This document shows positions 9,821 through 27,362 of a DNA stretch of 64,000 nucleotides, one piece after another. The notes under the pieces were generated by a model. That model ran no database searches, was not told where the DNA came from, and was given only the letters and a program-made list of their open reading frames with translations. The position numbers and the translations under genes are program-made. The DNA comes from Rhodocyclales bacterium (GTDB lineage Bacteria; Pseudomonadota; Gammaproteobacteria; Burkholderiales; Rhodocyclaceae), in the NCBI GenBank assembly GCA_016215645.1, contig JACRIX010000093.1:1-64000 (forward strand), written 5' to 3'. The first letter of the stretch is position 1. Every line of letters starts with the position of its first letter.

Positions 9821-9871
9821 GGGGCCGCGTCCGAGGGGGGCGGGCGGCGGGTATGGATCATGCGCTGAATC

Positions 9872-10606
9872 TTAGCGCAGGTCTCGGTGTCCGATCCTTG
9901 CGGAAACACGTGACCCTGCAGATTCCGCATCGTCGCGCGTCGGCGCGACCGGGAACGGGGTCAATTCGATGTCGGGATGGCGGGTTTCGAAGAACAGCGA
10001 ATACCAGGGATGGTCGACCGCCTGCCAGCGCCGCTTGGTGGCGACGACGTCACAGCACATGACGCGGTGGGGAATCATCCCGGCATGCGCCATGGGGATG
10101 AAATCGCCGCCGGGGAAGACATCCTCGAAGTACAGCCACTGATAAAAGCGATCCATCGGATGCCGCGCGGCGGCGACGATGCAATCGATGCCGCCGGCTT
10201 CGCATTGCAGGAACATCGCCTTCATCAGCATGGCCTTGACCACGCGCCCGACGGCGGCCTGGCTTACCGCCAGGCGGGTGGCCTCGGTCAGCACCCGGTT
10301 GCGCAAGGCGGCAGGCAGGCTTACCGACTGTTCAAGATCCAGCGGCTGGTACTGGTTGGTGCGGTAGCGCATGCTGCCCAGCGGCATGCCGTCCAGCTTC
10401 GCCAGGGCCACCAGAACACGGCTGCTGCCATCGAGATCGCTGGGCTCCGGCGTAGTGAAACGGGCCGCCAGTTCAGGCACATGGCGGCCATAGGCGCTGC
10501 GGCGGATGGCCACGGCCTTGGCGAGTTCCGCCTCGTCGCGCACGCAACGTATTACGAAAGGCAGCGATTCGGTGATGCGGTCGAAATTCGATGAAATCGG
10601 GTTCAT
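9872..10606 (-). CDS. FeeM-like N-acyl amino acid synthase (GNAT fold)
   Basis: About 244 residues resembling the N-acyl amino acid synthase FeeM and autoinducer-synthase branch of acyltransferases. Visible segments are VIRCVRDEAELAKAVAIRRSAYG at the start, TEATRLAVS in the middle and HPMDRFYQWLYFEDV towards the end. Members transfer an acyl chain from acyl-ACP to an amino-acid or similar acceptor; the product here is not predictable. I chose the ATG at 10606. An in-frame TTG at 10642 would add 12 residues that look non-conserved, and neither start has a strong ribosome-binding site. It follows the glycosyltransferase gene by about 107 bases on the same strand. Confidence 0.7.
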   Translation of the reverse strand: MNPISSNFDRITESLPFVIRCVRDEAELAKAVAIRRSAYGRHVPELAARFTTPEPSDLDGSSRVLVALAKLDGMPLGSMRYRTNQYQPLDLEQSVSLPAALRNRVLTEATRLAVSQAAVGRVVKAMLMKAMFLQCEAGGIDCIVAAARHPMDRFYQWLYFEDVFPGGDFIPMAHAGMIPHRVMCCDVVATKRRWQAVDHPWYSLFFETRHPDIELTPFPVAPTRDDAESAGSRVSARIGHRDLR

Positions 10607-10713: not shown

Positions 10714-11409
10714 TCAATCGGCCTTGCGGTAGCCATACTGCCGCGCCAGGCGCGCCGGATCGGCGCCGCAGAAAAAGGCGGCGCGCAGCCACCACATCAG
10801 CAGGATGGTATGCAGCACGCCGTGTTTCTGCCAGCGTCGGGCCGAGGTGGCCACCGTCTCGGCCAGGCATGCGGGAGCCGCCTGCCGCTTGAGCAGGGCG
10901 CTGAAGCGGATATCCTCCATCAGTGGCAGGTCGGGATAGCCGCCGACACGCTCGAACAAATCGCGACGGACGAAGATGGCCTGGTCGCCGGTGGCGATGC
11001 CTGTCAGGCGTGAGCGCCAGTTCATCATCCGTTCGACGACGCGCAGCAGGGGATCGCGGGCATCGATGCGCACGTCGAAGCGTCCCCAGTGGGCACCGCC
11101 ATCGATTGCTGCCCGCACGGCGGCGAAGGCGTGCGGCGGCAACACCGTGTCCGCATGGAGGAAGAGCAGAACCTGACCGCCGCTGGCCGTGGCACCGGCA
11201 TTCATTTGCCGCGCCCGGCCGCGCGGCGCGATCAGGATCCGGTCGGCGAGGGCCGCCGCCGCCTGGGCGCTACCGTCGGTGCTGCCGCCATCCACCACGA
11301 TCACCTCGACATTGTGTCGGCGCAGCGCCTGCAACGGCTGCAATTGGGCCACGATCCGCGGCGCCTCGTTCAACACCGGGACGACGATGGACAGCTCAGG
11401 CACCGGCAT
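10714..11409 (-). CDS. TIGR04283 family glycosyltransferase (arsenosugar-type)
   Basis: A 231-residue family-2 glycosyltransferase. It opens with LSIVVPVLNEAPRI, has VIVVDGGSTDGS for nucleotide-sugar binding and LLFLHADTVLP as the DxD-type site, and closes with a hydrophobic segment. The match is to TIGR04283, named from its frequent pairing with ArsS in arsenosugar clusters. An ArsS homologue lies 5.7 kb away at 17078-18076. The gene begins 15 bases after msrA on the same strand, so it may be expressed with the methionine sulfoxide reductases. The true sugar and acceptor are unknown. Confidence 0.82.
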   Translation of the reverse strand: MPVPELSIVVPVLNEAPRIVAQLQPLQALRRHNVEVIVVDGGSTDGSAQAAAALADRILIAPRGRARQMNAGATASGGQVLLFLHADTVLPPHAFAAVRAAIDGGAHWGRFDVRIDARDPLLRVVERMMNWRSRLTGIATGDQAIFVRRDLFERVGGYPDLPLMEDIRFSALLKRQAAPACLAETVATSARRWQKHGVLHTILLMWWLRAAFFCGADPARLARQYGYRKAD

Positions 11410-11424: not shown

Positions 11425-12048
11425 TCATTTCTCGCCCCAGACCTCGCGCAGTCGCGCGTCCCGACCGCAGCCGCCACGGTAGTACTGGTAACGAATCGGA
11501 TTCTTCTTGTAGTAGTCCTGGTGGTACTCCTCGGCCGGCCAGAATGGCGCGGCGGCGATGATTTCCGTGTGTATGGTCGTGAAGCGTCCGCCCTTCAGCA
11601 ATGCGTCGCGGCTGGCTTCGGCAATCTTGCGTTCGGACTCGCTTTGCCAGTAGATGCCGCTGCGGTATTGGCTGCCGACGTCGCAGAACTGCCGGTCCTT
11701 GACCGTCGGATCGATGGTGCGCCAGAAATAGTCCACCAGCCTGGCGTAGCTGACGAGCTTGGGGTCATAGGTGACGCGCACTGCCTCGGTGTGTCCGGTA
11801 GTGCCGGCACTGACGTCCTTGTAGCCGGGATTGACGGTTTTTCCCGCCGTATAGCCGGACTCGGCCGCGATCACGCCGGGCAGCTTTTCGAAGTCGGACT
11901 CGGTGCACCAGAAGCAGCCGCCGGCGAAGATTGCCGTGGCGCTACCGGGGGGCGTGGCGGCCGACGCTGCGACGGCGTCCGGCGTGCGGGTCACGCCGAC
12001 CCAGGCCAGGACCAGGCAGGCGCCGGCGATCAGGATGGACGGGCGCAT
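11425..12048 (-). CDS. msrA: Peptide methionine-S-sulfoxide reductase MsrA, exported
   Basis: A 207-residue MsrA that reduces the S-epimer of methionine sulfoxide in oxidised proteins. The active-site motif GGCFWCTE is intact, followed by Y-T-A-G-K and H-T-E-A-V-R-V-T-Y-D segments typical of the family. A hydrophobic N-terminus (ILIAGACLVLAWVGV) indicates export to the periplasm or membrane anchoring. The ATG lies 2 bases after the msrB stop, so the pair is translationally coupled. Upstream is a divergent ECF sigma factor operon, suggesting oxidative control. Confidence 0.95.
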   Translation of the reverse strand: MRPSILIAGACLVLAWVGVTRTPDAVAASAATPPGSATAIFAGGCFWCTESDFEKLPGVIAAESGYTAGKTVNPGYKDVSAGTTGHTEAVRVTYDPKLVSYARLVDYFWRTIDPTVKDRQFCDVGSQYRSGIYWQSESERKIAEASRDALLKGGRFTTIHTEIIAAAPFWPAEEYHQDYYKKNPIRYQYYRGGCGRDARLREVWGEK

Positions 12049-12050
12049 GC

Positions 12051-12551
12051 TCAGGTCCTCAGGGCGGGCAGCGCCTCGCCACGGGCGACGAAGCGCAGCG
12101 CGACACCGTTATTGCAGTAGCGCTTGCCGCTCGGTGGCGGACCGTCGTTGAATACGTGGCCCTGGTGTCCGCCGCAACGCGAGCAGTGGTACTCGGTGCG
12201 CGGATAGATCAGCTTGAAGTCGGTCGAGGTGCCCAGCGCGCCGGGCAGCGGTTGCCAGAAGCTGGGCCAACCGGTGCCGCTCTCGTATTTGTGGGCCGAG
12301 TCGAACAGCGGCAGGTTGCAGGCGGCGCAGGCGTAGGTGCCGGCGCGCTTTTCGTTGTTCAGCACGCTGCTGCCGGAACGCTCCGTGCCCTCCTCGAACA
12401 GCACCTGGTAGGCGTCGGCGGCGAGCAGCTTCTTCCATTCCTGTTTCGCCTTGTTCAGCGGAAAGGTTTCGGCAGCGCCTGCCTGACGTTGCGCCAGCAA
12501 CGGGGCGGCGATCAGGCCGGTGAGTCCAAAAAGCCAGTGGCGGCGGTTCAT
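12051..12551 (-). CDS. msrB: Peptide methionine-R-sulfoxide reductase MsrB, exported
   Basis: 166 residues from the ATG at 12551, chosen because AGGAGA lies 6 bases upstream; the open frame extends further but lacks a site. The N-terminus MNRRHWLFGLTGLIAAP carries twin arginines before a hydrophobic stretch, so it may be a Tat substrate. The MsrB domain shows two zinc pairs (CAAC and CSRC), GGHQGHVFNDG, and the catalytic cysteine in RYCNNGVALRF. With MsrA it repairs both methionine sulfoxide epimers outside the cytoplasm. A candidate ECF-type promoter lies 64-89 bases upstream. Confidence 0.95.
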   Translation of the reverse strand: MNRRHWLFGLTGLIAAPLLAQRQAGAAETFPLNKAKQEWKKLLAADAYQVLFEEGTERSGSSVLNNEKRAGTYACAACNLPLFDSAHKYESGTGWPSFWQPLPGALGTSTDFKLIYPRTEYHCSRCGGHQGHVFNDGPPPSGKRYCNNGVALRFVARGEALPALRT

Positions 12552-12614
12552 TGTTGTCTCCTGTGATGGGTGGGAACACCGCCCTCGGGGGTGGCGCTTG
12601 TTCCGCAGCGATTT

Positions 12615-12640
12615 GTCGGGGTGGGGCGGCAATCCTTACA
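12615..12640 (-). promoter_or_regulatory. Candidate ECF-sigma promoter for msrBA
   Basis: On the minus strand TGTAAGG (12640-12634) is followed after 15 bases by CGAC (12618-12615), a layout common for extracytoplasmic-function sigma promoters. It would give an msrB leader of roughly 55-60 bases. The adjacent divergent ECF sigma gene is the obvious candidate activator. This is pattern-based and unproven. Confidence 0.35.
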
Positions 12641-16384: not shown

Positions 16385-17068
16385 TCAGCCGGCGAGCAAT
16401 CCCGGCAGCGCGGCGAGGTCGCTGATCTCGCCATCCGGCGTCGACGGAATCCGCTCCGGCGGCTGGCCGTAACGGTTGCACCAGAACACGCGAAAGCCGA
16501 AGGCCTTGGCGGAGCAGGCATCCCAGCCGTTCGACGACAGAAAGCAGATGCCTTGCGGCACCAGACCCAGGCGCTGTGCGGCGAGGCCGTAGACCGCAGG
16601 ATGAGGCTTGAAGACGCCAACCTCCTCGACCGAAAGCACGGCATCGAAAACGCCTTCAAGCCCCGCGTTGCTTACCACCGCGGAAAGCATTGCCGGACTG
16701 CCGTTGGACAGGATCGCCAGCTTGATGCCGCGCTGTTTCAGCACGTTCAGCATCGCCGGTACTTCGGGGAAGCAGCCAAGCCGCAGGTAAAGCTGCATCA
16801 GCCGTTCGCGCAGGCCCGGGCGTTCAATCCCGAGTTGCGCCAGGGCGAAGTCCAGCGCATCGCCGGTGACTTGCCAGAATTCGGCATGATGCCCGGCCAG
16901 GCCGCGCAGCCAGGTGTATTGCAACTGCTTCAGGCGCCACAGGTCGGAGAGCCTCTGCCAGTCGTCACCAAGCTCGTCGCGCGCGCCGGCCGCCGCCGTA
17001 TTGAAGTCGAACAGGGTGCCATAGGCGTCGAAGACGCAGGCCTCGATATCGCGCAGGGGCTCTGTCAT
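16385..17068 (-). CDS. Haloacid dehalogenase, type II (HAD family)
   Basis: 227 residues. The HAD nucleophile motif is CVFDAYGTLFD (first Asp near residue 13). Motif II is LAILSNGSPAML, the lysine region is VFKPHPAVYGLAAQRLG, and motif IV is CFLSSNGWDACSAKAFGF. This pattern is specific to L-2-haloacid dehalogenases, which hydrolyse 2-haloalkanoates to hydroxy acids, although many such genes act on other substrates. It begins 9 bases after arsS on the same strand. Confidence 0.88.
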   Translation of the reverse strand: MTEPLRDIEACVFDAYGTLFDFNTAAAGARDELGDDWQRLSDLWRLKQLQYTWLRGLAGHHAEFWQVTGDALDFALAQLGIERPGLRERLMQLYLRLGCFPEVPAMLNVLKQRGIKLAILSNGSPAMLSAVVSNAGLEGVFDAVLSVEEVGVFKPHPAVYGLAAQRLGLVPQGICFLSSNGWDACSAKAFGFRVFWCNRYGQPPERIPSTPDGEISDLAALPGLLAG

Positions 17069-17077
17069 GGGGTTTCC

Positions 17078-18076
17078 TCAGTTGCCGCAGCTCGGGGCCG
17101 CGGCGGTATCGTGGCCCAGCGCGCCACCGCAGCTCGAACCCTGGCCGGCGGTGCAGCCGTAGCAATGCTCGGCGACCTGGATCAGGGTCTCGTCGATGGC
17201 CATCGCCGTGGCCCGGGTGATGTGCAGGCGGCCACCGGCGCCGTCGCCCATCGCCAGCCCGAGCTGCTGGTTGAAATCGCAATCGTAGAGATAGCCCTGC
17301 CAGTCGATGCTGACCAGGCTGCGGCACATCACGCCGTCGAGATTGCTGTCGCGGTGGGCCTGACGCAGGGTGGTCAGGTAGGCGTTGAACTGGCCCTTGG
17401 AGATCAGCATGCTGCCAAAGCGCTGGATCGGCATGTTGGCCAGGGTGAAGAGTTCATTGAAGGCCACGCCATAGCGCTCGCCGAGGTGGCGTTTGTAGTC
17501 TTCCTGCAGCTTCGCCTGCGGTGGCGGCAGGCTGGGGCCCTGCGGGTTGTACACCAGGTTCAGCAGCAGGCCGCTATCCTCGCGGCCATAGCCAAGCGCG
17601 TTCAGCCTTTGCAGGGCGCGCAGGCTGGCCTCGAACACGCCGGCACCGCGCTGGCGGTCGACGTTCTCTTCGAGGTAGCAGGGTAGCGAGGCGACGATGT
17701 CGACGCGATGCGCCGCAAGGAAGTCGGCCAGGTCCTCGTGTCCGGGTTCTTCGAGGATGGTGAGGTTGCAGCGGTCGATCACGCGCAGGCCGCGCGCGCG
17801 CGCCGCAATCACCAGGCGGCGGAACTGCGGATTCAGCTCCGGCGCGCCGCCGGTCAGGTCGATGCTGCGCACGCCCGGATTGGCGGCGAGGAATTCGATC
17901 ACCGCATCGACCGTTTCGGCGGTCATCTCCTCGGTGCGCTTGGGCCCGGCATTGACGTGGCAGTGCAGGCAGCTCTGGTTGCAGCGGTAGCCGAGGTTGA
18001 GTTGCAGGGTGTCGAGCGTGCGCCGCTTCAGCACGGGGAAATCGGTCCGACTCAGCAGGGGCAGGGTGGCGTGCAT
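17078..18076 (-). CDS. arsS: Arsenosugar biosynthesis radical SAM protein ArsS-like
   Basis: 332 residues. The radical SAM cluster motif CNQSCLHC lies near residue 33, followed by LTGGAPELN. The C-terminal half carries the ArsS-specific features: FGSMLISKGQFNAYLTTL, CDFNQQLGL, and a closing cysteine-rich tail (CYGCTAGQGSSCGG, then SCGN). ArsS is proposed to form the deoxyadenosyl-arsenic bond in arsenosugar precursors. Some homologues are selenoproteins; here the tail uses cysteines. A TIGR04283 glycosyltransferase sits 5.7 kb away, but no arsM methyltransferase is in the window. Confidence 0.87.
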   Translation of the reverse strand: MHATLPLLSRTDFPVLKRRTLDTLQLNLGYRCNQSCLHCHVNAGPKRTEEMTAETVDAVIEFLAANPGVRSIDLTGGAPELNPQFRRLVIAARARGLRVIDRCNLTILEEPGHEDLADFLAAHRVDIVASLPCYLEENVDRQRGAGVFEASLRALQRLNALGYGREDSGLLLNLVYNPQGPSLPPPQAKLQEDYKRHLGERYGVAFNELFTLANMPIQRFGSMLISKGQFNAYLTTLRQAHRDSNLDGVMCRSLVSIDWQGYLYDCDFNQQLGLAMGDGAGGRLHITRATAMAIDETLIQVAEHCYGCTAGQGSSCGGALGHDTAAAPSCGN

Positions 18077-19867: not shown

Positions 19868-20467
19868 TCATTTCCCTGTCGTCGCCGCCACGGCCCGGTT
19901 GCGCCGCGCCTCGCCTAGCGTGCCCTTGATGCGCAACAGGCTGCCGTCGAGCGCCGCCTGTCCCAGCCACCACTGATAGTCGGGCGACTGGTGGGCGAGT
20001 CCCAAACGCAATTCGCGCAGGTTCTTGTCCCGCAGCGTCGCAAACAGCGACTCGATGCGCGCTAGTTCCTCGCCCGCGGTTTCCCGGCGCGCGGTCGCCA
20101 CCAGCGCCTCGGCTTCGCGCTGCTTCATTTCGCCGATCGCCAGTCCGCGCTGCGCGGCGGCGTTCTGTTCCGTGGTGTAGCGCGGCGAATGGCAGGCGCG
20201 GCAACTCTCGGTCGCCGCCTCGCGCGCCTGCGCGCGGCTGCGTTTGCCGGCGTAGTGCGTCGCCGTCGGCGCCTGCGCCTCGACGCTATGGCAGCCGGTG
20301 CAGTCCGGTGCGCGCCGGCGTTCGCGCCCGGCCTCGATCCGGGCAATGACGCCGTGCTTGGACAGCGCCCAACTGCGCTCGGCGGCGCCGGCGTGGCATT
20401 CCACGCAGGTCTTGCCGGCGGCCGGGAGCGCAACCAACCACAACAGGAACAGGCACACGACGCGCAT
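19868..20467 (-). CDS. Periplasmic trihaem cytochrome c
   Basis: 199 residues. The ATG overlaps the stop of the octahaem gene (TGATG). A short signal peptide (VVCLFLLWLVALPAAG) is followed by three haem c motifs: CVECH near residue 20, CTGCH near 55 and CRACH near 92. The C-terminal half is helical and ends near HQSPDYQWWLGQAAL, which resembles C-terminal parts of multihaem nitrogen-cycle cytochromes. As the last gene of the operon it probably accepts electrons from, or docks onto, the octahaem protein. The exact family is not recognised. Confidence 0.82.
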   Translation of the reverse strand: MRVVCLFLLWLVALPAAGKTCVECHAGAAERSWALSKHGVIARIEAGRERRRAPDCTGCHSVEAQAPTATHYAGKRSRAQAREAATESCRACHSPRYTTEQNAAAQRGLAIGEMKQREAEALVATARRETAGEELARIESLFATLRDKNLRELRLGLAHQSPDYQWWLGQAALDGSLLRIKGTLGEARRNRAVAATTGK

Positions 20468-21804
20468 CAGTTGTGCTTCCGGTTGTGCATCGTGTACTCG
20501 CCTTCCATCCACAAGGGGCGCAGGTCGGGGCGCGGGCCGCGCGCCTTGTTGCGCAGTGCCCCGGCCTGGGCGGAGATGGATTTCTCGGCGTGCGCCAGGG
20601 CCTCGTGCCCTTCCTTCACCAGCTGCGGCGCGCCGTGGGCGGCGGCCTTGTAGCTGCCGAGGTTGGCGAAGTACCACATCTCGAAGTAATCGCGTTCGAT
20701 GGGCGAGACGTTGTAGAAGCTCGAGGCCTGGCCCTCGAAGAAGCCGATGCGCTCCTTCGGAAACCAGGCCTCCATCCAGTCGGTCGGGTAGGGCGGACGT
20801 TCGCCGGCGGCGGGGTAGAAGGCCTTTTCGCTGCGCAGCTCGCGCAGCAGGCGTTCCGTGCGGTTCAGGACCTGCCAGGCTTGCGCCCGCTCGCGGTCCA
20901 TCTCGGTCAGATTCCGGCGCGAGAAGCCGGCGTCATGGCAGTCGGTGCACACCTCGACCCAGCGTTCGCGCTTGACCTTGTTCTCGGCGGTGTTCGGATT
21001 CACCTGGCGCAGGCCGAATTGCCAGATCGACTTGTCGGCCACCACATGCTGGCCGTTTCTCATGTGGCAATAGGCGCAGGTCGGCACCGCGTAGTTGCCC
21101 TTCCGCAGCGGCTTGCTCCAGTCGGTTTGCTGCGCCTCGGCGAGGTAACGCTTGCCGTGCGCCGAGCCGAAATAGGTCTCGTCGTCCGGATGCGGCGGGC
21201 CGCTGTGGCAGGTGGTGCAGGCCTCGGGCCGGCGCGCTTCGGCGGCGTCGAAGCGGTGGCGCGTATGGCAGGAGTCGCACTTGGTCGCCACCGAATGGCA
21301 TTGCACGCAGGCCGTGGTTTCCGCCTTGGGTTTGTCGACGAAATGCTTGCTGTCGGTGGCGCGTTCCATGGCCAGCACGTGGCTGGGGAAGCCGTACTGC
21401 TTTTCCGACTGGAAGGCCTCGTGCTGCACGGCGTGGCATTCGGCGCAGACCTTGGGCGTGGGCATGCGCAGCTTGCGGTGGTCGGCGCCATGGCAGTCGG
21501 GGCAGGCCACCGGCGCGCGATTGGCCGGCTTGCTGTGGCGGCTGTCGCGCCAGTCGGCGACGATGCCCGGCGTCAGCGCCTCGTGGCAGGCGATGCACTC
21601 GGCGGCGGGAAACACGCCTTCGACGCTGGCGACCGGCTGGTAGAAGCGGTCCGGGTCCCAGTAGCCTTGCACCGGGTCCGGCTGCCATTCGCGCGAATAC
21701 AGGCCGCTGCCGGCGCCGCCCTTGCTCCAGTCGACCCAGGCCATGCCCGCCGCGATGCCGGCCAGCGAGAGCAGCACCGGGATCAGCAGCCAGCGCCGGG
21801 ACAT
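20467..21804 (-). CDS. Octahaem cytochrome c of the hydroxylamine oxidoreductase (HAO-like) family
   Basis: 445 residues with an N-terminal TM anchor (about 5-24). Eight CXXCH motifs start near residues 70, 101, 120, 166, 176, 196, 243 and 286. The first (ECIACHEALTPGIVADWRDSRHS) and the segment YFEMWYFANLGSYKAAAHG near the end are typical of HAO-like octahaem cytochromes. There is no CXXCK, so it is not the tetrathionate- or nitrite-reductase type. HAO relatives oxidise hydroxylamine or reduce nitrite or other N or S compounds; the direction here is unknown. It overlaps both neighbours, in an operon with a polyferredoxin-flavoprotein fusion. Confidence 0.88.
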   Translation of the reverse strand: MSRRWLLIPVLLSLAGIAAGMAWVDWSKGGAGSGLYSREWQPDPVQGYWDPDRFYQPVASVEGVFPAAECIACHEALTPGIVADWRDSRHSKPANRAPVACPDCHGADHRKLRMPTPKVCAECHAVQHEAFQSEKQYGFPSHVLAMERATDSKHFVDKPKAETTACVQCHSVATKCDSCHTRHRFDAAEARRPEACTTCHSGPPHPDDETYFGSAHGKRYLAEAQQTDWSKPLRKGNYAVPTCAYCHMRNGQHVVADKSIWQFGLRQVNPNTAENKVKRERWVEVCTDCHDAGFSRRNLTEMDRERAQAWQVLNRTERLLRELRSEKAFYPAAGERPPYPTDWMEAWFPKERIGFFEGQASSFYNVSPIERDYFEMWYFANLGSYKAAAHGAPQLVKEGHEALAHAEKSISAQAGALRNKARGPRPDLRPLWMEGEYTMHNRKHN

Positions 21805-21989
21805 CAGCGATCCCGGCGGTGGCGTGCGACGGCGCGTGCGATGCCGATGCCGGCGAGCAGCAGGAAGGGCAGCAGCGTGAGTCCGGGTATCGAGTCGTCG
21901 GTGGTGCAGACGAAATCGAAATTCACGGCATGGACGTGGGCCCAGGCCGGGTTGGCGATGGCGGCGAGAAGTACAGTCAGGCGCTTCAT
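21804..21989 (-). CDS. Small single-span membrane protein in the octahaem operon
   Basis: 61 residues. Its start overlaps the fusion gene stop (ATGA) and its stop overlaps the octahaem start (TGATG), so it is almost certainly translated. A signal peptide (MKRLTVLLAAIANPAWA) gives a mature start at HVHAVNFDFVCTTDDS. A single TM helix near LTLLPFLLLAGIGIA follows, with an arginine-rich cytoplasmic end. No family is recognised. The topology suggests an anchor or assembly subunit for the cytochromes; one cysteine lies outside. Confidence 0.75.
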   Translation of the reverse strand: MKRLTVLLAAIANPAWAHVHAVNFDFVCTTDDSIPGLTLLPFLLLAGIGIARAVARHRRDR

Positions 21990-24367
21990 GTCGCCAGCCT
22001 CGGCGCCCGGGGTGCAACGAGGGCTTGCGGCGCCGCGCGCCAGGCGCGCCAGGTCTTCCAGTCGGCCAGGCGGTGTTCGGCCAGTACCGTGCGCGCGGCG
22101 CGACGGCCGGCGGCGGCGGCGGTGACGATCAGGTCGGCGCCATGCACGGCGTCGCCGCCGGCGAAGATGCGCGGCTGCGAAGTGCGGCCATGGGCATCGA
22201 CCTTGATCGCACCGTATTCGGTGGCGACGCCGCCGGCCTCCAGCCAGTAAGGGGCAGCCGGCTGCTGGCCGAAGGCGAGGATCACCGCGTCGCAGGCGAT
22301 GCTCTGCAAAATCGCCGTATCGCCAGCGCCGACTTTTGCTTTTACCGCATGCACCGCGGCCTCGCCTTCGATGGCGAGCGGCGTGTGCTCGAAGAGGAAG
22401 CGCACACCTTCTTCGATCGCGGCGACGCGTTCGTGCGGATTGGCGCGCAGCTTTTCCGCCGTGCCGCGATAAGCGATTGCCACGCTGGTCGCGCCGTCGC
22501 GCAGCGCCACCCGCGCGCAGTCCATCGCCGTGTCGCCGCCGCCGAGCACCAGTACGCGTTTTCCCGCGAGGCTGCCGCCGGCCGCGCCGTCCTTGCCCCG
22601 GTTGATGCGGCCGAGGTAGGTCAGCGCATCATCGACGCCGAACAACTCGCGCCCGGGCAGCGAAACGTCGCGCGCCTGGCGCGCGCCCAAGCCGAGGAAG
22701 AGCGCCTCGTTGTCGTCGCGCAATTGCAGGAAACGCTCGGCATCGACCTCGACACCCAGCTCGAAACGCACGCCGGCCTGCTCCATGAGGATGCGGCGCC
22801 GGTCGAGCGCGCGCTTGTCGAAGCGGAAGGGCGGCAGGCCGCTCGACAGCATGCCGCCGATTTCTGTGTCGCGGTCATACACCGTGACGTTCCAGCCGGC
22901 GCGGTTCATCGCCTCGGCGAAGGCCAGCCCGGCCGGGCCGGCGCCGATCACCGCGGCATGCTTGTCGAGCCGCCTGGCCGGCGCCAGCGTCGGGCGCCAG
23001 CCGCGGGCCAGCGCCTCTTCGGTCACGGCATGCTCGATGGCGCCGATGGCGACCGCCGCCTCGCCCTGCCGCACGCGGGCGCAGGAGCCTTCGCAGAGCC
23101 GGTCCTGCGGGCACAGCGCGCCACACAGTTCCGGCATCGGGGAGGTCGAGGCCATGATTTCGGCGGCGGCCTCGATGCGGCCCTTGGCGGCCTGCATCAG
23201 CCATTCCGGAATCCGGTTGTGCAGCGGGCAGGCCGTGCGGCAGGTGGGTTCGCCGCAGTCGAGGCAGCGCGATGCCTGGGCCTGGATCTCGGCCAGCGGC
23301 AGGCGCTCGGCGCAGGCGTCGATGCGCGGCAGTTCGGGGGCGGCGACGCGGCGCAAGAGGTGCGTCGCGTCCTGGCGCAGGGCCGGGCGCAGGAAGTTGC
23401 GCAGGTCGCGGATTTCCAGCGCATCGGTGGGGCAGGAGACCACGCAGCGGGCGCAGCCCATGCAGTCTTCGAGGCCGGTGACGCGGCCGCTGGCCTTGCC
23501 CTGCTTCCATACCGGGATGCCCATGTCGCAGGCTTGCTCGCAGCGGCCGCAGTCGATGCAGCGCTTCTCGTCCATCTTCACGTCATAGAAGCCGGCGTGG
23601 TTGAGCAGGCCGAAGGTGGCGCCGAAGGGGCAGAGGAAGCGGCAGTAGGCGCGGTTGCCGACCAGCGGCGCGATGAAGAAGGTGCCGAAGTAGGTGGCGG
23701 CGACCAGCAGGTAGAAGCCGCTGACGAAGGACAGCGTCCAGGAGTTCGGCGGGTACTGCGTCACCACCAGCACGCCGACGTAATAGACGAAGAAGAACCA
23801 TTTGGCATGGCGCAGCGTCCACGCCAGTTGCGAGCGCGGCGAGTTTTCGCGGAAGGCGAAACCCACCGTCTCGCGGATGCCGACGCAGGGGCAGCCGAAA
23901 CCGCAGATCACGCGCCGGCCGAAGAGGAAGACCAGCGCCAGCACCAGGAAGAATGTCAGCGTGCCCGGCGTGTGCAGCGAGGGGAATACCGGCTGCGACC
24001 AGAGGTAGCCGATGTAAGGTTCGAAGAAGGGATTGAGCCAGGGCACCAGCCACCACAGGCCGGTGACCACGCCGACCAGGATGATCAGGCGGCGCCGCGT
24101 GTAGGCGTTCTTTTCGGCGACGATGCGCCAGGTGCCGAAGGCCAGGATGATGGCGTATTCGGTGTAGCGGTTGAGCCAGATCGGGCTCTCGAAGAGGAAT
24201 AGCCAGGTCTCGTTGAGCCAGCCGACGAAGGCCAGGGTGAAGGCAAGCAGCGAGAGCAGCTTGACCGGCCAGCCGTAGCGCGAGGGCAGGGTGTCCTGCT
24301 CGCCCGCCGTGACGCAATGCGGCGCGCGCGGAAAGCCGCCGACGGCCTCAAGCGTGATGGTGGCCAA
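21986..24367 (-). CDS. Membrane polyferredoxin fused to GltD-like FAD/NAD(P) oxidoreductase
   Basis: 793 residues from a TTG preceded by GGAG. The N-terminal half is NapH/RdxA/CcoG-like: about five TM helices, CGFGCPC near 185, CRFLCPFG near 275, then two 4Fe-4S clusters (CIDCGRCEQACD, CMGCARCVVSCP). The C-terminal half resembles glutamate synthase small subunit: cysteine-rich entry (CLDCGEPTC, CPLHNRIPEW, CGALCPQDRLCEGSC), FAD site GAGPAGLAF, NAD(P) site GGGDTAMDCAR and FAGGD. This could pass electrons between NAD(P)H and membrane or periplasmic carriers. The 20-base overlap with the upstream gene supports coupling. Copy 3 of the dispersed repeat encodes VGAGDTAI inside it. Confidence 0.9.
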   Translation of the reverse strand: MATITLEAVGGFPRAPHCVTAGEQDTLPSRYGWPVKLLSLLAFTLAFVGWLNETWLFLFESPIWLNRYTEYAIILAFGTWRIVAEKNAYTRRRLIILVGVVTGLWWLVPWLNPFFEPYIGYLWSQPVFPSLHTPGTLTFFLVLALVFLFGRRVICGFGCPCVGIRETVGFAFRENSPRSQLAWTLRHAKWFFFVYYVGVLVVTQYPPNSWTLSFVSGFYLLVAATYFGTFFIAPLVGNRAYCRFLCPFGATFGLLNHAGFYDVKMDEKRCIDCGRCEQACDMGIPVWKQGKASGRVTGLEDCMGCARCVVSCPTDALEIRDLRNFLRPALRQDATHLLRRVAAPELPRIDACAERLPLAEIQAQASRCLDCGEPTCRTACPLHNRIPEWLMQAAKGRIEAAAEIMASTSPMPELCGALCPQDRLCEGSCARVRQGEAAVAIGAIEHAVTEEALARGWRPTLAPARRLDKHAAVIGAGPAGLAFAEAMNRAGWNVTVYDRDTEIGGMLSSGLPPFRFDKRALDRRRILMEQAGVRFELGVEVDAERFLQLRDDNEALFLGLGARQARDVSLPGRELFGVDDALTYLGRINRGKDGAAGGSLAGKRVLVLGGGDTAMDCARVALRDGATSVAIAYRGTAEKLRANPHERVAAIEEGVRFLFEHTPLAIEGEAAVHAVKAKVGAGDTAILQSIACDAVILAFGQQPAAPYWLEAGGVATEYGAIKVDAHGRTSQPRIFAGGDAVHGADLIVTAAAAGRRAARTVLAEHRLADWKTWRAWRAAPQALVAPRAPRLAT
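22310..22339 (+). repeat. Dispersed VGAG repeat, copy 3 (inside fusion gene)
   Basis: AATCGCCGTATCGCCAGC followed by GCCGACTTTTGC. On the minus strand, in frame, it gives KVGAGDTAI. It is among the best-conserved copies. Confidence 0.75.
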
Positions 24368-25367
24368 AGGCGTTCTCCGCGATGGGCGTGGCAGGAGCGG
24401 TGCTGCCTTCGGTGGGATAGCCCAGCTCGCGCCAGGCAAGTATCCCGCCGCGCACCACGCGCAGGCCGGAGAAGCCCTGCTTCGCCAGCAGGCGCGCGGC
24501 CTGTCCCGAGCGCACCTGGGTGCGGCAGATCAGCACCACGCCGTCTTTGCGCCAGGTTTCCAGTTCGGCAATGCGTGCCGGCAGTTCGCCAAACGGCAGG
24601 TTCAGCGAACCGGGCACATGGCCGGTGTCGCCGTCGAAATCCTTGGCCTCGCGCACGTCGATCACGGCGACGCCGCCCTCGGCTTGCAAGGCGCGCAGCA
24701 TCTCGGGCGTGATCATCAATCCGGCCTTGAACTGGCGCACCAGGCGTGGCAGGAACATCAGTGCCGCGGCCACGGCCAGCGCCAGCAGGCCGTTGCGGAT
24801 CGCGTTGGCGTCGCCGGCCAGCGCCGCGCGCCCGGCATGGCCCAGCCAGGCATAGGCCAAGGCGCCGGGCAGCATGCACACGGCAGAGGCCAACGCATAG
24901 GCGCCGAGCGGAATGCGCGTCAGGCCGAGCGCATAGTTCACGACGTTGAAGGGAAACAGCGGCACCAGGCGGACGAAGGCGACGAAATGCCAGCCCTCGG
25001 CCTCGACGCCCTCGATCAGCTGCTTGAGCCGGCCGCCGGTTTTCTGCGCCACCCACTCGCCAGCCAGATGGCGCGCGACGAGGAAGGCCAGCACCGCGCC
25101 CAGCGTGGCGCCGGTCAGGCTGTAGAGCGCGCCGGGCAGGATGCCGAACAGCGCACCGGCGGCCAGGGTCAGCACTGAGCCGGGCAGGAACAGCACGGTG
25201 CCGGCGGCATAGACGGCGATGAACAGGAGCGGCGCCCACCAGCCGGCCGACGCCAGCCAGGCCTGCAAGGCCTCCTGGGAAAACGCGGCGCGATTGGCCA
25301 AGGCCAGCGCCAGGCCCGCGGCCAGCGCGACGATCAGCGCGGCGCGCGCCAGGCTAGCGGGCTTCAT
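24348..25367 (-). CDS. VTT/DedA-like membrane protein fused to rhodanese
   Basis: 339 residues from an ATG preceded by GAGGCGAG. The N-terminal part is a TVP38/VTT membrane domain (LFLPGSVLTLAAGALFG; VRLVPLFPFNVVNYALG) with about six TM helices. The last 110 residues form a rhodanese domain with the active-site loop CRTQVRS (Cys near 281). Rhodaneses carry sulfane sulfur as a cysteine persulfide. The combination suggests sulfur handling at the membrane. It overlaps the sterol-desaturase gene by 14 bases and the fusion gene by 20. Confidence 0.9.
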   Translation of the reverse strand: MKPASLARAALIVALAAGLALALANRAAFSQEALQAWLASAGWWAPLLFIAVYAAGTVLFLPGSVLTLAAGALFGILPGALYSLTGATLGAVLAFLVARHLAGEWVAQKTGGRLKQLIEGVEAEGWHFVAFVRLVPLFPFNVVNYALGLTRIPLGAYALASAVCMLPGALAYAWLGHAGRAALAGDANAIRNGLLALAVAAALMFLPRLVRQFKAGLMITPEMLRALQAEGGVAVIDVREAKDFDGDTGHVPGSLNLPFGELPARIAELETWRKDGVVLICRTQVRSGQAARLLAKQGFSGLRVVRGGILAWRELGYPTEGSTAPATPIAENAFGHHHA

Positions 25368-26217
25368 GGCTCGCCTCGGGGCCGTGGCCGATCGCATAGC
25401 CCGCGCCGGGATTGACGAAGGGAATCACCAGCATGCCGCCAAGGCTGACGCAGCGCGGATCGCCGGTCAGGCCGGCGACGCCGATGTCCATCGTCTCCTG
25501 CGCCAGGCGCGCGGCGGAGCGGTAGGTGCCGAACAATCGGTCCCAGAGCGAGAGGTTGAAGCCGAAATTGCTGTTGGCCTCGGCATTGTCCGTCGAGTGG
25601 TGCACCCGATGCATGTCCGGCGTCACCAGCAGCAGGCGCAAGCCGGTATCGATACCCGCGGGCAGTTTGACGTTGCCGTGGTTGAACATCGCCGTGGCAT
25701 TGAGCAGGACCTCGAACACCAGCACGGCGGCGGCCGGCGCGCCGAGCACGGCGATTACCGCGAACTTGATCAGCATCGAGAGGATGATCTCGATCGGGTG
25801 GAAGCGCGCGCCGGTGGTGAGGTCGTAATCCGGATCGGCGTGGTGTACCTGGTGCAGGCGCCACAGTACCGGTACGGCGTGCACCATCACGTGCTGCAGC
25901 CAGATGGCGAAATCCATGGCGACCACGGCCAGCAGCAGCGCCAGCGGTTCGGGCAAGCCCGCATTGTTGAGCAGACCCCAGCCGCGTTGCGTGGACAGGG
26001 TGGCGAAAGCCACGGCGGCGAAGGGGAAGACGAGGCGCACCAGCACGGTGTTGAACACCACCAGGCCCAGGTTGGCGGTCCAGCGCCGCAGGCGTGTATG
26101 GAGCCGGGCGCGCCGCGGCGCCGCGACTTCCCAGACGGCCATCAGGGCGAAAATGCCGAAGAAGGCGGCCAGCCGGATCGTCGGCTCGTGGGTCAGGGCG
26201 TACTCGTTGAATGTCAT
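25354..26217 (-). CDS. Sterol desaturase / fatty acid hydroxylase family di-iron enzyme
   Basis: 287 residues from the ATG at 26217, with GGAG upstream. A polytopic membrane protein carrying the histidine boxes of the fatty acid hydroxylase superfamily: HVMVH, HQVHH, NHGN and HRVHH. All metal-binding histidines appear present, so it should bind a di-iron centre and use oxygen or a related oxidant on a lipid or small molecule. It is the first gene of the six-gene operon. Why a lipid-type oxygenase belongs with multihaem cytochromes is unclear. Confidence 0.88.
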   Translation of the reverse strand: MTFNEYALTHEPTIRLAAFFGIFALMAVWEVAAPRRARLHTRLRRWTANLGLVVFNTVLVRLVFPFAAVAFATLSTQRGWGLLNNAGLPEPLALLLAVVAMDFAIWLQHVMVHAVPVLWRLHQVHHADPDYDLTTGARFHPIEIILSMLIKFAVIAVLGAPAAAVLVFEVLLNATAMFNHGNVKLPAGIDTGLRLLLVTPDMHRVHHSTDNAEANSNFGFNLSLWDRLFGTYRSAARLAQETMDIGVAGLTGDPRCVSLGGMLVIPFVNPGAGYAIGHGPEASHEAR

Positions 26218-26240
26218 GCGTTCTCCTCCTACACTGCCGC

Positions 26241-26268
26241 TTGCACCCCGCATCGGAGGGGCTATAAT
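26241..26268 (+). promoter_or_regulatory. Sigma-70 promoter of the arsR-rhodanese gene
   Basis: TTGCAC at 26241-26246, a 16-base spacer and a perfect TATAAT at 26263-26268. Transcription would start near 26275, inside the following palindromic operator, which is the standard layout for autorepression by an ArsR-type protein. Confidence 0.7.
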
Positions 26269-26280
26269 TCAACCAGTCAA

Positions 26281-26304
26281 CTATTCAACTGAATGGTTGA
26301 ATAG
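26281..26304. promoter_or_regulatory. ArsR-type palindromic operator
   Basis: CTATTCAAC, six bases, GTTGAATAG: a perfect inverted repeat with 9-base arms. Partial copies (ATTCAAC at 26267, GTCAAC at 26276) lie just upstream. It lies between two divergent transcription units, immediately before the regulator start and just past its -10 box. It is the best candidate site for the ArsR-rhodanese protein and could control both directions. Confidence 0.7.
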
Positions 26305-26322
26305 TAAGGGGCGGATGCGGCA

Positions 26323-26994
26323 ATGTCAACGGGAAACTTCAAACAGGACGTCTATCTGCAACTGGCGCGCGTGGCCAAGGCGGTCGGTCACGCCAACCGG
26401 CTGGAACTGCTGGAGTTCGTCGCCCAGGGGCCGCGCGGCGTCGATGAACTGGCGGGCATGACCAGGCTCTCGGTGGCCAACGCCTCCAAGCACCTGCAGG
26501 AGCTGCGCCAGGCCGGGCTGGTGAAGGCGCGCAAGGAAGGCGTGCGGGTGTACTACGAAGTCGCCGGGCCCGATGTGGTCGACCTGCTGGGCGCACTGAG
26601 GGTGGTTGCGGAGTCGCGCGTCGCGGAGGTTTCGCAACTGCTGCGCACCTACATCACGTCGCGCGACGACCTGGAGCCGGTGCCGGCCAGGGAACTGATG
26701 CAGCGGGCGAAGCAGGGCCTGGTCACGGTGCTCGACGTGCGCCCGGCCGAGGAATACGCCGCCGGCCATGTGCCCGGTGCGATCAATGTCACGCTCGACG
26801 CCCTGTCCAGCCACCTCAGGCGCCTGCCCAAGGGGCGCGAGGTCATCGCCTATTGTCGCGGCCCGTATTGCCTGCTCTCGGTGGACGCGGTCGCCATGTT
26901 GCGCGACAAGGGTTACCAGGCCCGCCGCATGGAGGACGGCTTTCCCGAGTGGAAGGCCGCCGGCATGCCGGTGGAAGAAACATCGCTCGACTAG
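26323..26994 (+). CDS. ArsR-family regulator fused to rhodanese
   Basis: 223 residues. The winged helix-turn-helix (about 10-95) has VGHANRLELLEFVAQGPRGVDELAGMTRLSVANASKHLQ with the recognition helix VANASKHLQEL. A rhodanese domain (about 120-215) contains CRGPYC, Cys178 and Cys183, on the active loop. Such fusions are thought to sense persulfides or other sulfane sulfur through the catalytic cysteine, as related ArsR-type sensors do. The gene faces the octahaem operon across the palindromic operator and starts the short arsR-dsrE unit. The ATG is at 26323. Confidence 0.93.
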   Translation: MSTGNFKQDVYLQLARVAKAVGHANRLELLEFVAQGPRGVDELAGMTRLSVANASKHLQELRQAGLVKARKEGVRVYYEVAGPDVVDLLGALRVVAESRVAEVSQLLRTYITSRDDLEPVPARELMQRAKQGLVTVLDVRPAEEYAAGHVPGAINVTLDALSSHLRRLPKGREVIAYCRGPYCLLSVDAVAMLRDKGYQARRMEDGFPEWKAAGMPVEETSLD

Positions 26995-27008
26995 CGGAGG
27001 CACGTCAA

Positions 27009-27362
27009 ATGGCAAAGAACCTGTTCATCCTCAACGATCCGCCCTACGGTACCGAGCGCAGCTACAACGCCCTGCGCCTGGCGCTGTCCCTGGCCAAGAC
27101 CGAGGGCGAGAACGTCCGCGTTTTCCTCATGGGCGACGCCGCCGCCTGCGCCAAGGCCGGTCAGAAAGTGCCGCAGGGCTACTACAACCTCGGCGACATG
27201 CTCGGCATGGTGGCGCGGCGCAATGCCGAGATCGGCGTCTGCGCTACGTGCATGGATGCGCGCGGCATGGCCGAGAGCGACCTGGTCGAAGGCGCTCGGC
27301 GCGGCACCCTGGCGCAGCTCACCGAATGGACCTCCTGGGCCGACAAGCTGCTGGTGTTCTGA
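27009..27362 (+). CDS. DsrE/DsrF-like sulfur-relay protein
   Basis: 117 residues from the ATG at 27009 with GGAGG upstream, 14 bases after the regulator stop. The fold and motifs match the DsrE/YchN family: LFILNDPPYGTERSYNALRLALSL, VFLMGDAA and a cysteine pair in GVCATCMDARG. DsrE-type cysteines accept persulfide sulfur from rhodanese or TusA donors. Pairing with an ArsR-rhodanese supports a sulfane-sulfur theme for the locus. Confidence 0.9.
   Translation: MAKNLFILNDPPYGTERSYNALRLALSLAKTEGENVRVFLMGDAAACAKAGQKVPQGYYNLGDMLGMVARRNAEIGVCATCMDARGMAESDLVEGARRGTLAQLTEWTSWADKLLVF

Follow-up and report, generated by a model that had tools for sequence, protein, structure and literature searches.

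A recurring gene set around an octahaem cytochrome of the hydroxylamine oxidoreductase family in a Rhodocyclales bacterium, tentatively read as a periplasmic sulfur reductase

Results

The locus presented here belongs to a Rhodocyclales bacterium (GenBank assembly GCA_016215645.1, contig JACRIX010000093.1) and occupies positions 19868 to 27362 of the 64,000-nucleotide stretch that was analysed, referred to below as the window. It holds an octahaem cytochrome, a trihaem cytochrome, a NapH-GltD fusion protein and five further genes, and the assembly around it is 3.4 Mb in size and 79.6% complete. Judged by their sequences, the octahaem proteins of this kind form a branch of their own within the hydroxylamine oxidoreductase (HAO) family, without two of the family's catalytic hallmarks, and they recur together with the same core partners in many genomes of several bacterial groups that are unrelated to each other. 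With considerable reserve, we read the module as a reductase that draws on NAD(P)H or quinol, acts on a sulfur compound in the periplasm and is controlled by sulfane sulfur; we infer its substrate and the direction of its electrons.

Six genes on the minus strand, at 19868-26217, overlap successively by 14, 20, 4, 1 and 1 bases, and an arsR-rhodanese/dsrE pair on the plus strand is divergent from this operon. The gene ends were re-derived, with small corrections to a preliminary description of this DNA, from which both the overlaps of 1-20 bases and the facing pair were retained. Pfam agreed with the domain identities proposed there, namely FA_hydroxylase, VTT with Rhodanese, Multi-haem_cyto, HTH_5 with Rhodanese, and DsrE, as well as Fer4_5, Fer4_9, Fer4_20 and Pyr_redox_2 in the fusion protein. 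The eleven haems were found again as eight plus three CxxCH motifs, and the three genes of eight that had been said to handle sulfane sulfur belong to sulfane-sulfur families according to Pfam, with invariant cysteines in each.

A scan of one genome per species gave 101 stretches encoding a relative of the octahaem protein. The best 80 of the 101 were taken as loci L032 to L111, in which the octahaem protein is 55-93% identical to that of the window. Gene calling in the loci was scored by conservation, and the counts take only loci whose contig extends far enough. NapH was present in all 68 covered loci, and a second multihaem protein, the homologue of the trihaem cytochrome, in 64 of 65. The ArsR-rhodanese protein was found in 42 of 48 loci, the FA_hydroxylase-type protein in 34, the VTT-rhodanese protein in 33, DsrE in 15, a second DsrE type in 11 and TauE/SafE in 6 of the same number. 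The core thus consists of NapH, the octahaem protein and the second multihaem protein, usually joined by ArsR-rhodanese, FA_hydroxylase and VTT-rhodanese, and the GltD half, DsrE and the 61-residue protein are additions to it. Chance clustering of the genes was rejected because the set recurs. The genome search proposed with the preliminary description found the set in 80 loci, and the claim that the genes work as one unit stands in the form of a conserved gene set; of the genes listed there the core ones recur, but DsrE and the 61-residue protein are not part of the core. Gene order varies. The VTT gene follows the octahaem gene in several Magnetococcales loci, and the divergent position of arsR, true of the window, is not universal, arsR being co-directional with the operon in the Thiobacillus loci L059, L068, L074 and L079.

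By octahaem sequence the nearest relatives are a Rhodocyclales groundwater metagenome-assembled genome (MAG; 93%) and Sulfuritalea and other betaproteobacterial MAGs. The organism names of the carriers include Sulfuritalea, Thiobacillus, Thiodiazotropha, tubeworm endosymbionts, Thiogranum, Sulfuricaulis and Thiohalobacter, and further carriers are many Gammaproteobacteria, Rhodospirillales, Magnetococcales and Nitrospinota. From lineage and names, they are apparently mostly sulfur oxidisers. Genome-wide searches were made for dsrA in 53 genomes (50 of the 80 loci plus G000, G167 and G201) and for ArsS in 49 of the 80 loci plus the same three; these loci had been selected to cover a wide spread ahead of any result, and L050 and G201 lie in one genome, which leaves 52 distinct carriers. 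A dsrA gene above the curated cut-off was found in 41 of the 53 genomes, i.e., in 40 of the 52 distinct ones, and in 44 of 52 when strong fragments (G000, G303, G322 and G337) are included. Among 300 genomes of the window's order the number was 60 (Fisher p 2.5e-15, with no correction for relatedness). The same 300 genomes contained any octahaem match in 24 cases and this clade in three, G000, G167 and G201. All three have dsrA, which in the genome of the window itself is fragmentary. Accordingly, only a minority of dsr organisms carry the module, as an accessory. In many carriers (G306, G308, G310, G311, G316, G324, G325, G334 and others) two copies of dsrA exceeded the cut-off, and as an informal impression this seems commoner than in the order background.

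The octahaem gene lies at 20467-21804 on the minus strand (PF13447, E 5.9e-37). A profile match to the HAO fold runs over positions 27-441 of 447, eight c-type haem sites are predicted, and the match to anammox HAO 4n4j reached E 9.4e-66 with the single sequence and 4.5e-88 with a profile. The comparison comprised 83 sequences including that of the window, 81 of them different. All 83 have eight CxxCH motifs, and conservation within the clade is complete or almost complete at the eight haem sites and at many other residues. In a quick tree, composed without anammox, epsilonproteobacterial and Beggiatoaceae members, the 81 different sequences were set apart together by a branch with an SH-aLRT value of 97. 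A structure prediction from 33 sequences had a mean pLDDT of 61.7 and was too poor for use.

In the HAO family an Asp-His pair has a catalytic role. The active-site His is kept in all octahaem proteins aligned, but the Asp is replaced by Pro (P204) in 83 of 83 clade members, compared with Asp in all 19 references, which were other octahaem proteins of the order to which the window belongs and comprised nitrifier HAO plus two more groups. Asp-His is also present in five PDB sequences, i.e., two anammox HAO, HAOr, hydrazine dehydrogenase and nitrifier HAO. The second lost hallmark is the cross-link Tyr. Its nitrifier column contains Tyr in none of the 83 sequences, any Tyr within eight columns occurs in three of them, and the C-terminal segment that bears this residue in HAO is absent. 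According to PMC12758564, the Tyr marks the oxidative members of the family and its absence the reductive ones; a term search of PMC10728637 found no active-site residues named. A true HAO or hydrazine dehydrogenase was ruled out by the missing Tyr together with the change of Asp to Pro. Binding of the catalytic haem by CxxCK is a trait of the octahaem nitrite and tetrathionate reductases (ONR and OTR), and none of the eight motifs, all CxxCH, shows it. The term HAO-like, used for this protein in the preliminary description, hence holds for the fold and fails for catalysis. An octahaem protein with an active site altered in this way may act on compounds other than the known nitrogen ones.

The second multihaem gene, at 19868-20467 on the minus strand, encodes three CxxCH in the window, and had been taken for an independent trihaem cytochrome. 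This could not be upheld. Among 70 family rows, some of them cut by contig ends, five CxxCH were counted in 52, three in 14, four in 3 and two in 1. The window protein is under the cut-off of PF13447, and three pentahaem homologues exceed it (Multi-haem_cyto, E 1.5e-12 to 3.3e-16). A profile built from 30 of the 41 short pentahaem members aligned with a 40-sequence octahaem profile at E 1.6e-39 over residues 59 to 420 (window numbering), and with the 19 other octahaem proteins at E 3.2e-36. The family keeps haems 1, 2, 6, 7 and 8, and the stretch with haems 3-5 is absent, so that there is no equivalent of the catalytic haem 4. In the alignment with the 19 proteins, the C-terminal HQSPDYQWW is placed opposite the segment that holds the cross-link in nitrifier HAO, and a Trp occupies the position of the Tyr. 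By these alignments the trihaem cytochrome is a member of a family of truncated octahaem relatives.

The NapH-GltD fusion gene (21986-24367, minus strand; recognised by Pfam and NCBIfam) was given a TTG start picked among several possible ones, and its NapH half is the part that belongs to the core. The paired Cys loops and two 4Fe-4S ferredoxin motifs of NapH are present (Fer4_5 and Fer4_9), although the score for TIGR02163 was 63.7 bits, below the cut-off of 213.05. The GltD half has Fer4_20 and Pyr_redox_2 with both nucleotide-binding motifs, and the Fe-S cysteines are invariant in 52 rows of the long form. The fusion was found in 52 of the 68 loci, NapH alone in 12, and 4 were undecided. 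The loci with NapH alone (L095, L098, L100-L102, L104, L105 and L107-L111) are alphaproteobacterial, Magnetococcales and Nitrospinota ones; either the GltD fusion came later or the GltD half was lost. A connection of the haems to NAD(P)H, as originally suggested, thus suits the fusion loci but is not universal.

The first gene of the operon (25354-26217, minus strand) encodes an FA_hydroxylase-type di-iron membrane protein (PF04116, E 1.6e-29) and the second (24348-25367, minus strand) a VTT (TVP38/DedA-type)-rhodanese membrane protein (PF09335 and PF00581), whose rhodanese Cys281 is invariant in 40 rows. The 61-residue protein (21804-21989, minus strand) has no Pfam or NCBIfam match; by eye it has an apparent signal peptide and a C-terminal membrane anchor, and homologues were found in ten betaproteobacterial loci, L032-L040 and L083. 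In 32 sources its place before the octahaem gene belongs to a small family whose members mostly have one or two CxxCH, and which was present in 33 of 83 sources altogether. These small haem proteins, e.g., that of L054 at 9400-9951, are apparently membrane-anchored; the 61-residue protein of the window is without a haem motif. The accessory dsrE gene (27009-27362, plus strand) encodes a sulfur-relay protein of the DsrE family (PF02635, E 1.4e-24).

Between the divergent units there is an operator (26280-26305, assigned to no strand), a perfect 10-base inverted repeat with arms at 26280-26289 and 26296-26305. It contains ATTCAA-N8-TTGAAT, which occurs as a single exact copy in the window and in the whole assembly. 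The motif was found in 31 of 51 regions upstream of arsR, the window included, compared with 0.0 expected from mononucleotide shuffles; the 51 regions were those with a readable arsR start. A looser form occurs in 32 of them, spread over 7 of the 11 clusters that a threshold of 72% octahaem identity gave, and the motif is missing from 20 regions, or 19 for the looser form. A sigma-70 consensus scan of 26218-26322 found no promoter, though TATAAT is legible by eye at 26263-26268. The ArsR-family repressor-rhodanese fusion (26323-26994, plus strand) scored over the cut-off of the general ArsR/SmtB model NF033788 and reached 34.5 bits with the BigR model NF040642, under the cut-off of 155. In its alignment, cysteine columns are confined to C178 and C183 of the rhodanese loop, both invariant in 51 of 51 rows, and no conserved cysteine was found in the DNA-binding domain of these 51 proteins. 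An inverted-repeat operator in a divergent region is typical of ArsR control, and we regard this protein as a putative repressor sensing through the rhodanese cysteine pair. Of the control first proposed for the locus, the perfect operator was verified and local control is likely, but the divergent promoter was not recovered by the scan.

Genes of arsenosugar type, which the preliminary description did not mention, lie near the module. An ArsS-type radical SAM protein is encoded at 17078-18076 on the minus strand (TIGR04167, 451.4 bits against a cut-off of 300) and is adjoined by a type II haloacid dehalogenase gene at 16385-17068. Farther away, at 10714-11409, is a TIGR04283 arsenosugar-type glycosyltransferase gene, adjoined by MsrA and MsrB genes side by side (11425-12048 and 12051-12632). 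ArsS over the cut-off was found in 43 of the 52 carrier genomes and in 93 of the 300 of the order. Within 10 kb downstream of the octahaem gene, it was present in 13 of 44 loci (4 of 11 clusters) and absent in 31, and any relative of ArsS, ArsM-like, TIGR04282 or TIGR04283 proteins occurred in 18 of 44 (6 of 11 clusters), e.g., in L041, L052, L053 and L092; the ArsM-like count, with a 60-bit tblastn threshold, may take in other methyltransferases. An ArsM-like methyltransferase gene is located elsewhere in the window's own genome (G000:C22:7978-8988), with 73% identity to a module-adjacent one in L050.

Discussion

In the reading that we tentatively prefer, the GltD half of the membrane polyferredoxin would take electrons from NAD(P)H, or quinol would supply them where GltD is missing. 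The electrons would cross the membrane by way of the Fe-S clusters of the NapH half and reach the HAO-fold pair of octahaem protein and truncated cytochrome. In the periplasm the octahaem protein would serve as terminal reductase, with a sulfur compound as its substrate, most probably sulfane sulfur, for instance polysulfide or a thio-compound related to it. Inward transfer of the sulfur, in the direction of the Dsr pathway, would fall to VTT-rhodanese and DsrE, and ArsR-rhodanese may repress both transcription units at the one operator until freed by modification of C178 and C183. Several considerations speak for this proposal, among them the conservation of the unit, the recurrence of its operator and the co-occurrence with dsrA. 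Outward, reductive flow would be downhill because an NAD(P)H flavoprotein is fused to NapH in 52 loci, which is redox reasoning. A reductase would fit since the missing Tyr is, according to PMC12758564, a mark of reductive enzymes of the HAO family. A sulfur substrate is favoured by the carriers, the rhodaneses, DsrE and the regulator. The lost Asp and those neighbouring families that could be annotated speak against nitrogen oxides, for which no genome-wide gene search was made.

Several points weigh against this proposal. The clearest sign against a role confined to sulfur is that arsenosugar-type genes are linked to the module in 18 of 44 loci. With its Asp lost, the octahaem protein could be only an electron carrier, NapH-GltD could run in the opposite direction, FA_hydroxylase is without a role in the model and dsrE is found in a minority of loci. 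As to the carriers, 8 of the 52 genomes, mostly incomplete MAGs, gave no DsrA match of useful size, and the carriers are phylogenetically non-independent. The background is a single order that includes the carriers G000, G167 and G201 and has no lineage matching, and TIGR02064, the dsrA model, is blind to the difference between oxidative and reductive DsrA; the dsrA genes of the carriers are presumed to be of the oxidative type. Finally, the whole proposal is drawn from sequence.

The most serious of the other explanations, although unlikely, is that the octahaem protein is a reductive HAO removing nitrite, NO or hydroxylamine in nitrate-respiring sulfur oxidisers, in which the sulfur proteins would only signal sulfidic conditions. 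The HAO fold along the whole length of the protein agrees with this, as do the absence of Tyr that accompanies nitrite reduction in HAOr (PMC12758564) and the nitrite reductase, hydroxylamine oxidase and hydrazine oxidase activities of the Beggiatoaceae protein BOGUAY_0691 (PMC6449678). However, the Asp retained by HAO, hydrazine dehydrogenase and HAOr and by every reference is Pro throughout the clade, and BOGUAY_0691 is described in PMC6449678 as lying beside napAB, in another neighbourhood. Among the annotatable recurring neighbour families there was no nitrogen-oxide gene, and no genome-wide search for nitrate or nitrite genes was made; the families in question recur in at least five sources, one further family comes from four sources, and for five of the families Pfam gave no match.

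Less probable than a nitrogen-oxide reductase, in our opinion, is a module working oxidatively, i.e., one in which a sulfur compound of the periplasm is oxidised and its electrons go to quinone and, if energy is supplied, also to NAD(P)+. Commonness of dsrA in the carriers would suit it, several enzymes of the HAO family are oxidases, and DsrL, a GltD-like flavoprotein, works towards NAD+ in sulfur oxidation according to PMC7596348. The octahaem protein, however, is without the cross-link Tyr, and reduction of NAD(P)+ from periplasmic haems would be uphill, with no coupling subunit seen in the operon.

A function in arsenic or thioarsenic (or selenium) metabolism, in which the module reduces or desulfurises periplasmic thioarsenate beside an arsenosugar pathway, we consider doubtful, and less probable again than the oxidative direction. 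It would account for the frequency of ArsS in carriers, for the arsenosugar-type linkage and for the ArsS and TIGR04283 genes in the window. In addition, in Thioalkalivibrio arsenite alters DsrE/F-like genes and raises an operon of a glycosyltransferase and a rhodanese, as given in PMC6620896. On the other hand, 26 of 44 loci have no arsenosugar-type gene within 10 kb downstream, the ArsM-like count may be too inclusive, and classical As(III) sensing is unlikely since the ArsR domain is without a conserved cysteine. A combined proposal, to which we give lower probability yet, is a new class of enzyme, an HAO-fold hetero-complex in which HQSPDYQWW of the partner would complete the octahaem protein that has lost Tyr and Asp; this complex would reduce periplasmic sulfane sulfur or thioarsenate and pass sulfur inward to rDsr. 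It is very unlikely that both cytochromes are without catalytic activity and serve as electron carriers, with FA_hydroxylase or a protein encoded elsewhere as the converting enzyme. The loss of two catalytic hallmarks would fit this, as would the absence from the partner of haems 3-5, including the counterpart of catalytic haem 4, but the eight haem sites, like many further residues, are all (nearly) invariant in the clade.

The system merits attention as an HAO-family branch with replaced hallmark residues kept in a largely fixed gene set, which spans genomes of tubeworm and clam symbionts, groundwater bacteria and Magnetococcales. If the substrate is a sulfur compound, the module may fill a missing step from periplasmic sulfur to the cytoplasmic rDsr pathway; if it is thio-arsenic, sulfur oxidation would be tied to arsenosugar formation; and a hetero-complex would be one answer to periplasmic sulfur activation and import. 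Either way, the named residues, the operator and the small gene set are open to testing. The preliminary description knew of no described pathway with this gene set, and our searches of Creative Commons-licensed papers in PubMed Central likewise found no published description.

Comparison with known systems

With members of the HAO family (anammox HAO 4n4j and 6t5e, hydrazine dehydrogenase 6hif and nitrifier HAO 1fgj) the octahaem protein of the window has in common most of its length, the eight CxxCH and the active-site His, but it differs from them by the missing cross-link Tyr, by Pro in place of Asp and by its 445 residues as against 500-582 in the PDB chains. The nitrite-reducing HAOr (6h5l) also lacks the Tyr and is Trp-rich in that region, yet it keeps Asp-His (GPDHPDA), which the window protein does not. 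BigR and SqrR, sulfur sensors of the ArsR/SmtB type, resemble the regulator by the ArsR fold and the inverted-repeat operator; the window protein, unlike these, has no conserved Cys in the DNA-binding domain, its only Cys pair being in the fused rhodanese. The NapGH quinol dehydrogenase has a NapH-type polyferredoxin too, whereas none of NapG, NapA and NapB is among the eight window genes and NapH is fused there to a GltD-like half. DsrL and other GltD-like NAD(P)H flavoproteins have the Fe-S and FAD/NAD(P) architecture and an occurrence in sulfur oxidisers in common with the fusion protein (PMC7596348). DsrL works as partner to rDsrAB, and the text of that paper does not use the word membrane; the GltD unit of the window, in contrast, is fused to membrane-bound NapH and adjoins periplasmic haem proteins. 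The nearest described system is the orange octahaem protein of Beggiatoaceae, BOGUAY_0691, likewise from sulfur oxidisers, which has 511 residues and adjoins napAB as stated in PMC6449678, and which was compared by description and neighbourhood, not by sequence. The parts of the module are of known families, and the octahaem clade and the assembly of the genes are new variants.

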